A DNA stretch of 64,000 nt from an uncultured Chloroflexota bacterium (lineage in GTDB: Bacteria; Chloroflexota; Chloroflexia; Chloroflexales; Chloroflexaceae). The stretch lies in assembly GCA_937120965.1 (NCBI GenBank), contig CAKZKA010000266.1, positions 1 to 64,000 of the forward strand, written 5' to 3'. Positions 13,103 to 56,761 of the stretch are shown piece by piece. Numbering within the stretch: the first letter of the stretch is position 1; each line of letters starts with the position of its first letter. Both the position numbers and the translations under genes were made by a program. The notes below the pieces were generated by a model. That model had not been told where the DNA came from. It worked only from the letters and a program-made list of their open reading frames with translations, and made no database searches.

Positions 13103-13275
13103 GGTTCAGACCTGCTTGACAATCTGGCCCTCATCTCCACACCTCCACAGCTCTCCAGGGTGGTTGTGTGGAGGTGTAGAGCCGCGGAGATGTAGAGCGA
13201 CTGTAACGTTACAACGCTTGCTGGGGAGACCAGAGCCGCGCGCGGGGCATTCCAATATGGTGAATCTCCGACGAA
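13103..13275. repeat. inverted repeat and half copy of the GGCGGACAG element
   Basis: ACACCTCCACA (about 13138-13148) pairs with TGTGGAGGTGT (about 13167-13177). This sequence family (CTCCAC/GTGGAG) recurs at 24545-24580 and 42360-42412. At about 13217-13262 the segment GGGGAGACCAGAGCCGCGCG matches the right half of the GGGGCGGACAG element seen at 18340 and 56450, without its terminal repeat. Confidence 0.6.
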
Positions 13276-13479
13276 CCTGAGGTGAACATAGCCCGCCCGC
13301 GGGAGGGTTTGGGAGGGCTGCGCCCTCCCAAGAAGAATAATATTTTCATTCTGGCGTTGTGCGCCCCGCGCATGGGGCCTGAGGTGAACATAGCCCGCCC
13401 GCGGGAGGGTTTGGGAGGGCTGCGCCCTCCCAAGAAGAATAATATTTTCATTCTGGCGTTGTGCGCCCCGCGCATGGGG
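13276..13479. repeat. perfect 102-bp tandem duplication of a D-B-C module set
   Basis: The block starting CCTGAGGTGAACATAGCCCG at 13276 is repeated base for base from 13378, each copy containing module D, a module B hairpin, the AATAATATTTTCATTCTGGCG spacer and a GCGCCCCGCGCATGGGGC end. A third copy starts with CCTGA at 13480 and stops. Confidence 0.95.
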
Positions 13480-13753
13480 CCTGACATGATTGTACTACCA
13501 TTTCCGATTGTGGATAGCGGATGCGGGGACCGGCAGGGGCTCTCCGCACCCTCGTGGCAGAGGATGTGGGATGTCGGCGCCTGCCCACGAACAGCATGCA
13601 GGGCAGCCGCGTAAGCCCAACAATTATTTGTGACCGACACCACAAAGTGAATGGTCGCGGGCGTGGTACAATGTCAGGCAGGCAGCGACGCGCGGCAAAG
13701 GCGCCGGGCGTCGGCGGCCCAGACACAGCAGCGTCAAGGCGAGAAGACACCCT
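13480..13753. other. upstream region of sucA
   Basis: Begins with a TACCATTTCCGATTGTGG fragment of the TACCA element family (about 13497). A possible -10, TACAAT at 13667-13672, has no convincing -35. Otherwise no gene or recognisable site. Confidence 0.4.
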
Positions 13754-16873: not shown

Positions 16874-18184
16874 ATGGCCTACGAGATTAAGGTCCCCTCG
16901 CTGGGCGAGTCGATCGTCGAGGCGACGGTGGCCCGCTGGTTGAAACGGGCCGGTGAGATGGTCGCCGCGGGTGAACCGGTGGTTGAGCTTGAGACCGATA
17001 AGGTGAACCTGGAGGTGGCGGCGGATCACGCCGGGGTGGTGACGGCAATTCTGAAGGAAGAGGGCGCGACCGTGGGGATCGGCGACGTGCTGGGCACCAT
17101 CGAGGTGGGCGCGGCGCCGCGCCCGGAGGCGGTTGCGGTCGCGCCGGCGGTGGCGGCCCCGGCCGAGCCGGAGATGCGCGGCGCCGAGGCGCCCGGTGGG
17201 AACGGCGCAGCGGTGCTGGCAACGCCGACGGCGCAGCGGGTGGCCGCGGAGTACGCTGTGGATCTGCGGGGCGTGGCCGGCACGGGTCCCGGCGGGCGGA
17301 TCACCAAGGAGGACGTGCTGCGCAGCGTTCAGGCGCCAGTGGCGACAACACCCCCGCCGGCGGCCGCGCCTGCCGCCGCAGTGGCCCCGCCGCCCGCGCC
17401 GGTGGCCCCGCCTGCCGCTGCGGTGGCCCCGCCGCCTGCGCCCGCGGGCGCGGCCCGCCCCATGGCGCCACTCCCCGCCTCCGGGCGCTACGAAGAGCGC
17501 CAGCGCCTCAGCCGGCGCCGCCTGACCATCGCCCGGCGCCTTGTTGAAGCTCAGCAGACCGCGGCCATGCTCACGACCTTCAACGAAGTGGATATGAGCG
17601 CGGTCATGGAGCTCCGCAAGCGGCACAAGGACGCCTTCAAGGAGCGCTACGGAGTGAGCCTGGGCCTGATGTCCTTCTTCACCCGCGCCGTCGTCGGGGC
17701 GTTGAAAGCCTTTCCTATGGTCAACGCCGAGATGCAGGGCGACGAAGTGGTGGTGAAGTACTACTACGACATCGGCGTGGCCGTGGGTGTCGAAGAGGGG
17801 CTGGTGGTGCCAGTGGTGCGCGACGCCGACCGGAAGAGCTTCGCGCAACTGGAGCAGGAAATCGCCGACCTGGCTCGCCGCGCCCGCGAGGGCGCCCTGA
17901 GCCTGACCGAGTTGCAGGGCGGCACCTTTACCATCACCAACGGCGGCGTCTACGGCTCACTCCTCTCCACACCCATCCTCAATACGCCCCAGGTCGGCAT
18001 CCTCGGGATGCACAAGATCGAAGAGCGGCCCGTGGTGATCGACGGGCAGATCGTCATTCGCCCGATGATGTACCTGGCCCTGAGCTACGACCACCGGCTG
18101 ATCGACGGCAGCACCGCCGTGCGCTTTCTGGTGCGGGTCAAGGAGTTGATCGAAGATCCTGAGGCGCTGTTGCTGGAGGGGTAG
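16874..18184 (+). CDS. sucB: dihydrolipoyl succinyltransferase (E2) of 2-oxoglutarate dehydrogenase
   Basis: 436 residues from ATG 16874; the frame extends further upstream but the lipoyl domain begins here with [13 protein letters not shown]. Lipoyl domain 1-77 with lipoyl-lysine K43 in ETDKVN. E1/E3-binding domain about 115-152 ([27 protein letters not shown]). A Pro/Ala/Val linker (about 155-200) leads to the catalytic acyltransferase domain (about 205-436) ending with the active-site [21 protein letters not shown] and [13 protein letters not shown] are the succinyltransferase-type signatures. It works with the E1 encoded just upstream. The ribosome-binding site is weak (ACAGG). Confidence 0.96.
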
Positions 18185-18647
18185 GGCCTTTTAGGGGTGG
18201 GGGTTCTGGCGGATGGCGTTCTGATGCGCTGGTTGGTCCTCACCCCCGGCCCCCTTCGACAGGCTCAGGCTTCGCCCTGAGGCTCAGCCCGAAGGGGCGG
18301 GCCTCTCCAGCTTCGCCGGAGAGCCTGCGCTGAGCCTGTCGAAGCGGGGAGATCAGAGCCGCGCGCGGGGGCGTTCCAATGCGGTACACGCCACGTTGGC
18401 GCGGATGTTCCGTCCGCCCTTAAACTCCCTGAGCAGGGGAGGGGGTATGCAGAGCCTGGCTCACCCACCCCCTCCAGGCACGAAGGGGTATGGAGAAACC
18501 AGGTTTCTCCATACCCCTTCTCGCCAGAGGCCCCTACGGATGCGCCACGCACTACCCGGATGAAAGAGACATTGTCGGGAGGGCTGCGGCTTCCTCAGCC
18601 CTCCCCCGGGCAGAAGCGCGGGGCAACCGGGTTGCCCCATGCTCACC
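18185..18647. repeat. nested intergenic repeats between sucB and a convergent gene
   Basis: A GCTTCGACAGGCTCAG/CTGAGCCTGTCGAAGC inverted repeat spans about 18256-18345. It is embedded in a GGCGGACAG-type element whose right end GATGTTCCGTCCGCCC lies at 18404-18419; the matching left end is missing. Module A variants follow (about 18491-18508, and GGGGCAACCGGGTTGCCCC at 18620-18638). No gene is seen. Confidence 0.7.
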
Positions 18648-19517
18648 TCACCGCCCGTAGCGCCACTGGTAGTAGTGCAGTCCCACGTTGCCCATCTCGA
18701 CGCGGAAGGCGGGCGGGTTGGCCGGATTGTAGGTCAGCACGCGGCGCTCGAAGACCTGGAAGAGGATCGGCACCTCTTTGCCGCCCACCTTGGACTTGAC
18801 CCAGTAGGCCCCGGTGACCGGCAGTCCGAAGACGAAGAGGGGATCGTAGACCCGCCCGATCACGTTCCGTCCACCCTCAGTGACCAGCCCCCGCTGATTC
18901 ATAAAGTCAATGAAGACCTTCGCCACACCGTGGTTGTTGTCGCCCAGCACCAGGATCGTGTTGGGGTCGTTGACGAAATCGTTGAAGCCGGTGATCGAAC
19001 CATCGGGGTTGAGGAAGCCGGTAGCCGGCCGGCCCAGATCATTCGGGTTAACGGCGCCAGGGCTCTGGTAGACCGGCAGCAGATCGGCGTAGGTCGGGTA
19101 CTGGCCCGGGTCGCCGATAGCGCTGATGCGGGCCGGGCCGCGCTGCTCGAAACGGTTATTGCCGAGTTGCAGGCGCCCGGTCATCATCTCGATCGGCAAC
19201 AGACCATTGGTGACGTACCACAGATTGTTGGGATTGGCGGTCGGATCGTTGATCTCCATGCGGCTCTTATCGAAGTACTGCACGGTTCGCAAACCGTCAA
19301 TGCCTTCGATATAAGTTTCGCGCATGATTCCGCTGATGGGCGCAGGACCCCACGTCCACGAGCGGTCGGTCAAGCCCTGGGAAACAGGATAATCCTGGCG
19401 GGTCCAGACGCGCAGGAAGCTATCGTTGCCGATAGCGGGCGCGGCCAGCACGGGCTGCAGGGCAAGCAGGACCGCGGCGAATACCGCGAACACGCCAGCA
19501 AGAATGGGCCGTTTCAT
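18648..19517 (-). CDS. secreted protein of the YFDK/FERRVLTY domain family
   Basis: 289 residues from ATG 19517, with AGGAGG about six bases upstream. Signal peptide 1-25 with likely cleavage after VLAA. The mature part is a single domain with the blocks LRVWTRQD, GLRTVQYFDKSRMEIN, VTNGLL...GRLQLGNN, FMNQRG, GLPVTGAYW and FERRVLTYNP...VEMGNVGLHYYQWRY. The same blocks occur in the same order in the N-terminal half of the secreted protein at 36353-38230, so this is a defined paralogous domain. No catalytic signature is recognised. I associate the family with Chloroflexi extracellular proteins; function unknown. Confidence 0.8.
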   Translation of the reverse strand: MKRPILAGVFAVFAAVLLALQPVLAAPAIGNDSFLRVWTRQDYPVSQGLTDRSWTWGPAPISGIMRETYIEGIDGLRTVQYFDKSRMEINDPTANPNNLWYVTNGLLPIEMMTGRLQLGNNRFEQRGPARISAIGDPGQYPTYADLLPVYQSPGAVNPNDLGRPATGFLNPDGSITGFNDFVNDPNTILVLGDNNHGVAKVFIDFMNQRGLVTEGGRNVIGRVYDPLFVFGLPVTGAYWVKSKVGGKEVPILFQVFERRVLTYNPANPPAFRVEMGNVGLHYYQWRYGR

Positions 19518-19587
19518 CGCGCACCTCCTGAGGTTTAGCAATATCGCCGGAGGGTGGGGCAACCCGGTCCCCCACGTCCGGGGTTTG
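19518..19587. other. short repeat lead-in upstream of the secreted gene
   Basis: ACCTCAGGAGG at the gene start joins a module D end to the ribosome-binding site. A degenerate GGGGCAACCCGG/CCGGGG module follows. No promoter was recognised. Confidence 0.4.
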
Positions 19588-19707
19588 GGGGCGGACAGAA
19601 CATCTGGACGCCGACGGGCGTTATGGCATTGGGGGGCGAGCAGAGCCGTGCGCGGGGGCGTTCCAATGCAGTACAAGCCACGTTGGCGCGGATGTTCTGT
19701 CCGCCCC
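19588..19707. mobile_element. 120-bp element with 17-bp perfect terminal inverted repeats
   Basis: GGGGCGGACAGAACATC at 19588-19604 is exactly inverted at 19691-19707. The interior (ACGCCGACGGGCG, AGCAGAGCCGTGCGCGGGGG, TACAAGCCACGTTGG) is shared with copies at 56327-56518 and about 18340-18419. No coding capacity; it has the form of a miniature inverted-repeat element. No matching transposase was recognised in the window. Confidence 0.75.
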
Positions 19708-20696
19708 TGAACATCCGGGGAGGGTAGGGGCGGGCTGTGCCATCCAGAACAACCTCGTTGCATCCTGCCGTTGTGCGGCGCAGCCACAAGGGCGTCGGTT
19801 GCGGCAATCTGTAATCGCTCCTGCGGCCACTTTCAGCATAGCACGCCAGGGCGTGGATGGCGATCACAAGCGTGCCACGGCTGTCTGATAAGCAGGCAAC
19901 AGGGACGTGAGATCGGTGATGGCGAAGGCGAGCGCAGGCGCGTCCCCGCTATTACCGACTCTCGTAGGAGCGAGGGTGGCCCGCCCGTGAACGCCGACGA
20001 GGGCGGGATACCGATGTCACGTGAGCACGCCGCGCCCAGCGTTGCGGCAAGGCGTGCATGGACGCCTGGTGCGACAATCTGCAATCCCAAATCTGCAATC
20101 TGAATGCGTTCGAGTCTGCTCCATATACCCCCCCATGGTATGGGGGATGGGTAGTTTTTCCCACCCGATCGGGTACGCGCAACACAACCCATTCTGAGCG
20201 TTGTGATCTCAGATCGATTCTGGCATACTTTCGATAAGCAATAGATTTGCGCTATCTGATCGCGCTGCGCTTGCGCCAGAGGGCCAGGCCCTCGCAGCAA
20301 CCCGCCCTTCGCCGGCAGGCGATGGCAGGGAAGGGCCTGGAGAGCCGCGCCTCCTTGAACCCTGCCTCGGGGCCGGGGAGGTCTGTTTTCTGTGTGCCTT
20401 TAGACCAACCCTTTTCAAACACGTAGATCCGGCGCTTCAGTCCTGCTCCCGACCTCCCTCCGTTGGGGGGAGAAGTCGAACGCTCTCGGCGGGGAAGAGG
20501 GGAATCAGGGGCGAACGGGCTTGTGCAAAAGGTATTCCCTCGAGCTTGTTAGCGTGGAACATCCTCGCCCAACCCATAGTCGGGGGGCGCGGGTAGCACA
20601 CATCTACGGGCTTCCAGCCTGCACCTGCAGGTTGGCACGGGGTATTCGCCCTGGTTATTGCGGTCATTGGCCACTCGCGAAGGCAGTGCGGCAGCG
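19708..20696. other. long non-coding stretch before the transposase remnant
   Basis: Contains a module C core (GTGCGGCGCAGCCACAAG near 19774), a degenerate AATCTGCAATCCCAAATCTG repeat (about 20080-20103), a 7-bp hairpin CCCCCAT/ATGGGGG (20130-20146) and GC-rich filler. Open frames here lack ribosome-binding sites and family signatures; no gene is supported. Confidence 0.5.
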
Positions 20697-56215: not shown

Positions 56216-56326
56216 TGAGTGGCGCATCCGGCACGTCAGGCTACACACCCGGAGGTGAGCAGATGGGGAAACCGGGTTTCCCCACCCCCTGCCCAGGGGG
56301 TTGGCAAGCCCTCCCTGCCGGGTTCA
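56216..56326. repeat. module A after the pseudopilin pair
   Basis: GGGGAAACCGGGTTTCCCC at about 56264-56282, followed by GC-rich filler. No gene. Confidence 0.75.
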
Positions 56327-56518
56327 GGGGCGGACAGAACGTATGAGCGCCGACGGGCGTGATGGCGTGGGGATGCGCTGGGTGGCTCCCGCCCCCTCCC
56401 CCTCTCCAGCTTCGCTGGAGAGCCTGCGCTGAGCTTGTCGAAGCGGGGAGACCAGAGCCGCGCGCGGGGACGTTCTAATGCGGTATACGCCACGTTGGCT
56501 CGGATGTTCTGTCCGCCC
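56327..56518. mobile_element. 192-bp GGGGCGGACAG element with nested insert
   Basis: Ends GGGGCGGACAGAACGT (56327-56342) and GATGTTCTGTCCGCCC (56503-56518) are near-perfect inverted repeats. Compared with the 120-bp copy at 19588-19707 it has about 70 extra bases, including CCAGCTTCGCTGGAGAGCCT and GAGCTTGTCGAAG, shared with 18256-18345. Confidence 0.75.
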
Positions 56519-56761
56519 TTAAACCCTACCGGGAGGGTTTGGGAGGGCGCAGTCCTCACGGGAGATCTATGACCATCGGGGAAACCGGGTTCCCCCACAA
56601 CCTTGCCCGGCGGGGTGTCAGGCGACCCCAACAGTCGGGTGGTTCGTTTCGCGGCTACAAAGTTGTTGTGTACGGAGAAGAAAAGATTCTGGTAGGCCCC
56701 GTGCGCTCCGATTCGTCCGCGCACTCTCGCCAGCAATCCAGTACCAAACGGAGGGATCTCG
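56519..56761. other. upstream region of tadG2
   Basis: Module B (GGGAGGGTTTGGGAGGGCGC near 56530) and a module A variant (about 56577-56596), then sequence without repeats up to the start. The last 20 bases (CGGAGGGATCTCG before ATG) mirror those before tadG1. No promoter like copies 1 and 2 was found here. Confidence 0.5.

Follow-up and report, generated by a model that had tools for sequence, protein, structure and literature searches.

A Family of MITE-Like Repeats in a Chloroflexaceae Genome and Its Probable Origin From IS4-Type Insertion Sequences

Results

Copies of the Element in the Window

The window, meaning the entire stretch of DNA analyzed (64,000 nucleotides of contig CAKZKA010000266.1, from an uncultured Chloroflexaceae bacterium), carries a short repeat upstream of the start of the gene at 18648-19517. 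The repeat was initially described as a 120-bp element with perfect 17-bp inverted ends, and these ends were confirmed in the window sequence (19588-19604 and 19691-19707); with up to three mismatches the 17-mer has five matches in the window, compared to a mean of 0.28 in shuffled sequence. Outer bases that are common to the whole family extend the element to 19584-19711 (128 bp). A longer copy at 56 kb and two partial copies, all noted in the original prediction, are likewise real. The 128-bp and 201-bp copies are intergenic; mechanical, program-made ORFs, which are predicted only, run across the element copies. The features are as follows (coordinates, strand, description, and basis):

~13223-13261, + strand: right-half fragment, neither end retained (sequence comparison)
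~18222-18424, + strand: incomplete copy, 251-bp type, with the right end retained and the left arm lost or replaced (sequence comparison)
19575-19583, unstranded: imperfect 9-bp target repeat of the 128-bp copy, left, CGTCCGGGG (flank comparison)
19584-19711, + strand: probable MITE copy with the centre apparently deleted, 128 bp, comprising the reported element and its outer bases (ends and size-class comparison)
19584-19604, + strand: left terminal repeat of the 128-bp copy (sequence)
19691-19711, - strand: right terminal repeat of the 128-bp copy (sequence)
19712-19720, unstranded: imperfect 9-bp target repeat of the 128-bp copy, right, CATCCGGGG, 8/9 alike (flank comparison)
56313-56322, unstranded: 10-bp target duplication of the 201-bp copy, left, CCCTGCCGGG (flank comparison)
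56323-56523, + strand: probable MITE copy of 201 bp, the commonest size class (ends and flanks)
56402-56422, + strand: central hairpin of the 201-bp copy, CTCTCCAGCTTCGCTGGAGAG (sequence; the hairpin recurs in the class consensuses)
56524-56533, unstranded: 10-bp target duplication of the 201-bp copy, right, CCCTACCGGG, 9/10 alike (flank comparison)

Other repeats occur in or beside these copies. A second repeat, (G)TTTCTGGCGGATGGCGTCC..., which may be another mobile family, is found beside or in place of the left part of some copies (window positions 18202-18219; also L005, L013, and L022). The motif TTCGACA(G/A)GCTCAG, presumably a repeat widespread among environmental bacteria, is located centrally in the longer size classes of the element and has three matches in the window (18255-18268, 18330-18343, and 56429-56442; 0.05 expected). 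A stretch of ~102 bp beginning CCTGAGGTGAACATAGCCCGCCC is present in two tandem copies directly after the 13.2-kb fragment (13276-13480); the palindrome GGGGAAACCGGGTTTCCCC lies on both sides of the 56-kb copy (56264-56283 and 56578-56597) and recurs around many element copies in the retrieved loci.

Copy Number, Size Classes, and Interior

Within the genome, the 17-bp end was found at 252 sites with no more than two mismatches, compared to a single site for the reversed pattern. Turning 159 strand-wise pairings of ends to one orientation and removing repeats left 89 two-ended pairings with flanks, spread over many contigs; one of them (L020) has an end in common with another pairing. Since the loci were picked for a good end match, decayed copies are under-represented among the 89. 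The ends shared by the family read TT(C/T)A(G/A)GGGCGGACAGAAC. The most frequent size classes are 201 bp (35 copies), 251 bp (11), 178 bp (10), and 200 bp (8), with others from 123 to 323 bp; most lengths fall between 123 and 259 bp, too short to hold a transposase. In the 201-, 251-, and 178-bp classes, copies have a median identity of 94-95% to their class consensus. These classes differ chiefly in the centre: the 178-bp class has the hairpin CTCTCCAGC-TTC-GCTGGAGAG alone, the 201-bp class adds one copy of the motif CTGAGCCTGTCGAA, and the 251-bp class contains more sequence of the CTGAGCCTGTCGAA type.

By these size classes, the form of ~200 bp, and not the 120-bp one, is the normal one. 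Copies as short as the reported one account for 3 of the 89 (123, 125, and 128 bp); because sizes around 200 bp dominate, the 120-bp form is a deleted derivative, and the 128-bp copy appears to have lost its centre. The additional central sequence of the 56-kb copy, previously read as a nested repeat, is no peculiarity of that copy but belongs to the commonest size in the genome.

Target Duplications, Target Sites, and Self-Nesting

Target duplications, proposed from the outset as a check on mobility, were found at many copies. With the element taken as bounded by TT(C/T)A...TAAA, the 10-bp flanks were alike at nine or more positions in 36 of the 89 pairings, 22 of them exactly, compared to 38 of 7,832 mismatched pairings; flanks of 8 and 12 bp gave no signal in the same 89 pairings, and the signal was small for flanks of 9 bp (7 of 89) and 11 bp (8 of 89). 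Fewer than eight of ten flanking bases were alike in 48 of the 89 copies, for which decay or recombination is assumed. Agreement at nine or more of ten flanking bases also occurred in other genomes, in 8 of 39 rows compared to 4 of 1,482 controls; the 39 rows include alternative pairings (L050, L097, and L099), and copies without the C-run marker (for example G019, L143) were dropped.

Empty sites were rebuilt for the 41 copies with at least eight of ten flanking bases alike; around the duplicated 10 bp, the left half is C-rich and the right half G-rich. Beyond the duplication, the two arms of one site were no better complementary to each other than arms taken from different sites (5.20 vs. 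5.03 of 12 positions); for this reason we claim a dyad preference, not a hairpin at every target site.

Nesting, originally claimed for the 56-kb copy, is real at other loci, where five copies sit at the central hairpin position of another copy. In L043, an entire copy sits within another at the central hairpin, bordered by CCCGCGTGCA and CCCGCGTGTA; in L003, L041, L044, and L215, the outer left end is found 90-102 bp upstream in the same orientation, equivalent to the central-hairpin position. The claim rests on well-matched end-like sites: with up to four mismatches, eight such sites were found within 250 bp upstream of a copy, five of them at 90-102 bp, whereas the 22 end-like sites found near copies with up to five mismatches did not exceed the control orientation (29).

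Empty Sites and Distribution in Relatives

Both intergenic sites in the window are empty in three relatives each, and the insertion differences that had been predicted thus exist, in a comparison between species rather than strains. Three of four genus relatives (G001, G002, and G003) have a gene matching the TadE-like one on the left side of the 56-kb copy, and the stretch following this gene lacks the element in all three. The gene at 18648-19517 has matches of 95-98% identity in G002, G003, and G004; the element is absent upstream of the orthologue in these three genomes, and the sequence further upstream is recognizably common. The match in G001 is only 48% identical and was excluded from this comparison. 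A scan of the six empty-site loci with up to three mismatches returned a single end-like site, within the gene itself in G002.

The pattern AGGGGCGGACAGMAC is present in 16 of 41 family genomes, and its reversed counterpart in none of the 41. In a named sequence collection, which may leave out the window's own genome, an 18-base end pattern matched 34 stretches, 32 of which are titled Chloroflexales, Chloroflexaceae, Chloroflexi, Chloroflexus, or Oscillochloris; two matches in Clostridia-like bins are taken as chance. Two IMG/VR matches, by eye within coding sequence, were also taken as chance. Other genera have many two-ended copies of ~140-205 bp, and some longer ones, with similar ends and partly different interiors.

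Candidate Parent Insertion Sequences

The larger transposons anticipated for these ends occur in other genomes, with closely similar ends; the window's own genome has yielded a truncated transposase fragment only, a transposase start beside one family-type end (L172). The element L141, internally shortened to ~600 bp, has family-type ends and holds the front of a transposase gene, the product of which has matches in 8 of 41 family genomes. One match is a 405-amino-acid transposase in G005, beside a single family-type end at a contig edge; it scores 59.2 bits against Pfam DDE_Tnp_1 (above the cut-off of 23) and 115.5 bits against NCBIfam IS4_2 (below the cut-off of 152). When 400 genomes of the phylum were searched with this protein, eight had matches at E ≤ 1e-30, with at most four candidates scored per genome among the matches listed; in PLSDB, five records matched and none covers 80% of the protein.

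A two-ended insertion sequence of 1,378 bp (L177) with perfect 18-bp inverted ends, TTTAGGGGCGGACAGAAC, was found in the single-contig genome G030 (5,801,598 bp), a member of the same order that we take to be Roseiflexus sp. RS-1. Compared with either consensus MITE end, these ends have a single base changed; they recur unchanged at three left and five right ends among the 89 MITE copies; over the first 28 bases, L177 and the MITE consensus agree at 26. In the transposase of L177, Ala replaces the expected catalytic Glu of the YREK motif, so that this copy is probably dead. G148, taken to be Herpetosiphon aurantiacus, has four insertion-sequence copies with intact YREK transposases, mostly exact 10-bp target duplications, and the ends TTTAAGGGCGGACAG. 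The Herpetosiphon-type transposase ORFs in L179 and L189 span 401-414 amino acids. Six of seven transposases have the motif Y-2-R-3-E-6-K, the exception being L177. Among seven two-ended insertion sequences examined, five have exact target duplications, of 10 bp (L179, L187, and L189) or 11 bp (L180 and L181), and in L177 and L185 the duplication is absent. The target sites of the insertion sequences include CCCCTCTCCC-GCCGCAGTG-GGAGAGGGG.

The window's own genome, a 307-contig assembly in which 4 of 14 first-look candidates were scored, yielded no intact parent; three DDE_Tnp_1 matches there lack a family-type end pair. A DDE_Tnp_1 search of seven genomes returned 37 rows, 30 of which were taken on as loci, none with an end of up to three mismatches on both sides; weaker end pairs (four mismatches) were present at L102, L121, L125, and L106. 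Several candidate parents were rejected: ISAs1, since a search of the own genome with PF13808 came back empty; L150, where two weak end matches lie 2.2 kb apart and the long ORFs continue outside; and L106, where a duplicated stretch adjoining an ordinary copy holds a short piece of a transposase. The L106 locus itself (682-1299 and 1684-1919, in G046) contains a partly duplicated gene, by eye GTP cyclohydrolase II-like, with the transposase piece at the junction and a MITE copy downstream.

Discussion

A Probable MITE That May Offer Its Own Target

The original assignment to a MITE-like family holds up, on the strength of target duplications, empty orthologous sites, and larger elements with closely similar ends. 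The element is short and without a transposase gene, has terminal inverted repeats and target-site duplications, and is dispersed in high copy number, as expected of a MITE. We regard it as very probable that the feature at 19.6 kb is a MITE copy: a short, non-coding element derived from an insertion sequence of the IS4 type and moved in trans by a transposase. As the duplications and target sites suggest, an IS4-type transposase would bind the element ends, excise the element, and reinsert it at the centre of a C-rich/G-rich dyad, with a stagger of 10 bp. The central hairpin of the MITE would itself be a dyad of the target kind, so that each insertion may offer a new target, and nested copies would result. 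The parent in the own genome looks decayed, and the copies may therefore have become stranded, unless the draft assembly lacks a parent that is still intact.

A different origin of the inverted ends has to be weighed against this reading. If the element were a structured regulatory RNA kept by the host, or an mRNA hairpin serving as terminator or stabilizer, its ends would be complementary as a consequence of the fold and not of transposition. The class consensuses do fold as one long hairpin, and one strand folds better than the other (-110.5 vs. -89.7 kcal/mol for the 178-bp class); on the strand starting with TTCAGGGG, unlike arm bases are mostly G-U rather than A-C in the lineage consensuses of the own genome (8:1, or 7:2 for the 178-bp consensus under other gap settings), G001 (7:0), G002 (8:1), G004 (9:2), and G052 (7:0), counts that cover related sequences and not independent events. 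However, G046 (4:3), G016 (6:5), and G011 (4:1) show this asymmetry weakly or not at all, and changes from G-C within copies do not keep pairs (G-U to A-C 34:34 for the 201-bp class and 4:11 and 16:19 for the other classes). Covariation does not exceed that in shuffles (0.142 vs. 0.144; further pair types, 26 vs. 30.2), Rfam has no match in the window, and no terminator-like site was found in 18000-20200. Target duplications and empty sites, moreover, require transposition. A structured-RNA role of the element is thus not supported, and we consider this explanation highly improbable.

The G-U excess could still reflect selection on active master copies to fold as one particular single strand, either RNA or single-stranded DNA, a proposition that we think unlikely; strand-biased mutation of the master copies would explain the excess as well as selection. 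If true, selection of this kind would explain why G-U outnumbers A-C on one strand in the own genus and in G052, and folding, combined with the self-supplied hairpin target, would become part of the transposition cycle.

The least probable reading, to which we give hardly any credence, is that of a REP/BIME-like palindrome family spread by RAYT (REP-associated tyrosine transposase) instead of a DDE insertion sequence: high copy number, hairpin content, and the intergenic position of the window copies would suit it, yet the inverted ends of the element are conserved, its target duplications of 10 bp are of a kind that to our knowledge IS200/IS605-like enzymes do not produce, and DDE insertion sequences with closely similar ends exist. 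REP sequences are palindromes of 20-40 bp (PMC3733652), without long terminal repeats or target duplication, and the element does not conform to this description.

With the MITE interpretation, many of the intergenic hairpins repeated in this genome, and in its relatives within the family, find an explanation and can be linked to a type of transposase that is identifiable. The sequence evidence favours a mobile element whose ends are acted on by an IS4-type transposase that spreads it, and it contains no sign of host use. Readers of genomes are cautioned that such hairpin repeats are not RNA genes but mobile DNA; the family also provides a natural case of a MITE bearing a version of its own target.

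Comparison With Known Mobile Elements

Small mobile cassettes that are moved by an IS4-family transposase are represented by MIC231 and the IS231 group of the Bacillus cereus group; these have other ends, and the MITE described here is without a cargo gene. MITEs, YREK IS4-family elements, and palindrome-aimed insertion sequences are kinds already known (PMC2266710; PMC1525189); in the titles and opening parts of abstracts of the open-licence literature, no description of the present MITE family was found. The IS4 family is characterized by a YREK DDE transposase and target duplications of ~10 bp (De Palmenaer et al., 2008; PMC2266710), and the probable parents resemble it in having one ORF, a DDE transposase with Y-2-R-3-E-6-K, and duplications of about the same length; the MITE itself is without a gene. 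The parent ends TTTAGGGG and TTTAAGGG, compared by eye, fit none of the seven IS4 subgroup patterns in Table 1 of that paper (PMC2266710), and the parents may constitute an unlisted IS4 subgroup. ISRm22 of Sinorhizobium meliloti, which belongs to the IS4 family and targets REP palindromes (Tobes and Pareja, 2006; PMC1525189), is a parallel in its IS4-type nature and its insertion at the symmetry axis of GC-rich palindromes. In contrast to the 10-bp duplications and the looser C-rich/G-rich dyad of the present family, ISRm22 is described with 6-bp direct repeats and a tight REP consensus (PMC1525189); its host and ends are also different. Finally, MITEAba12 is an insertion-sequence-derived bacterial MITE found across a bacterial family (PMC6382973); likened by its description, it is the same sort of element in another host group.
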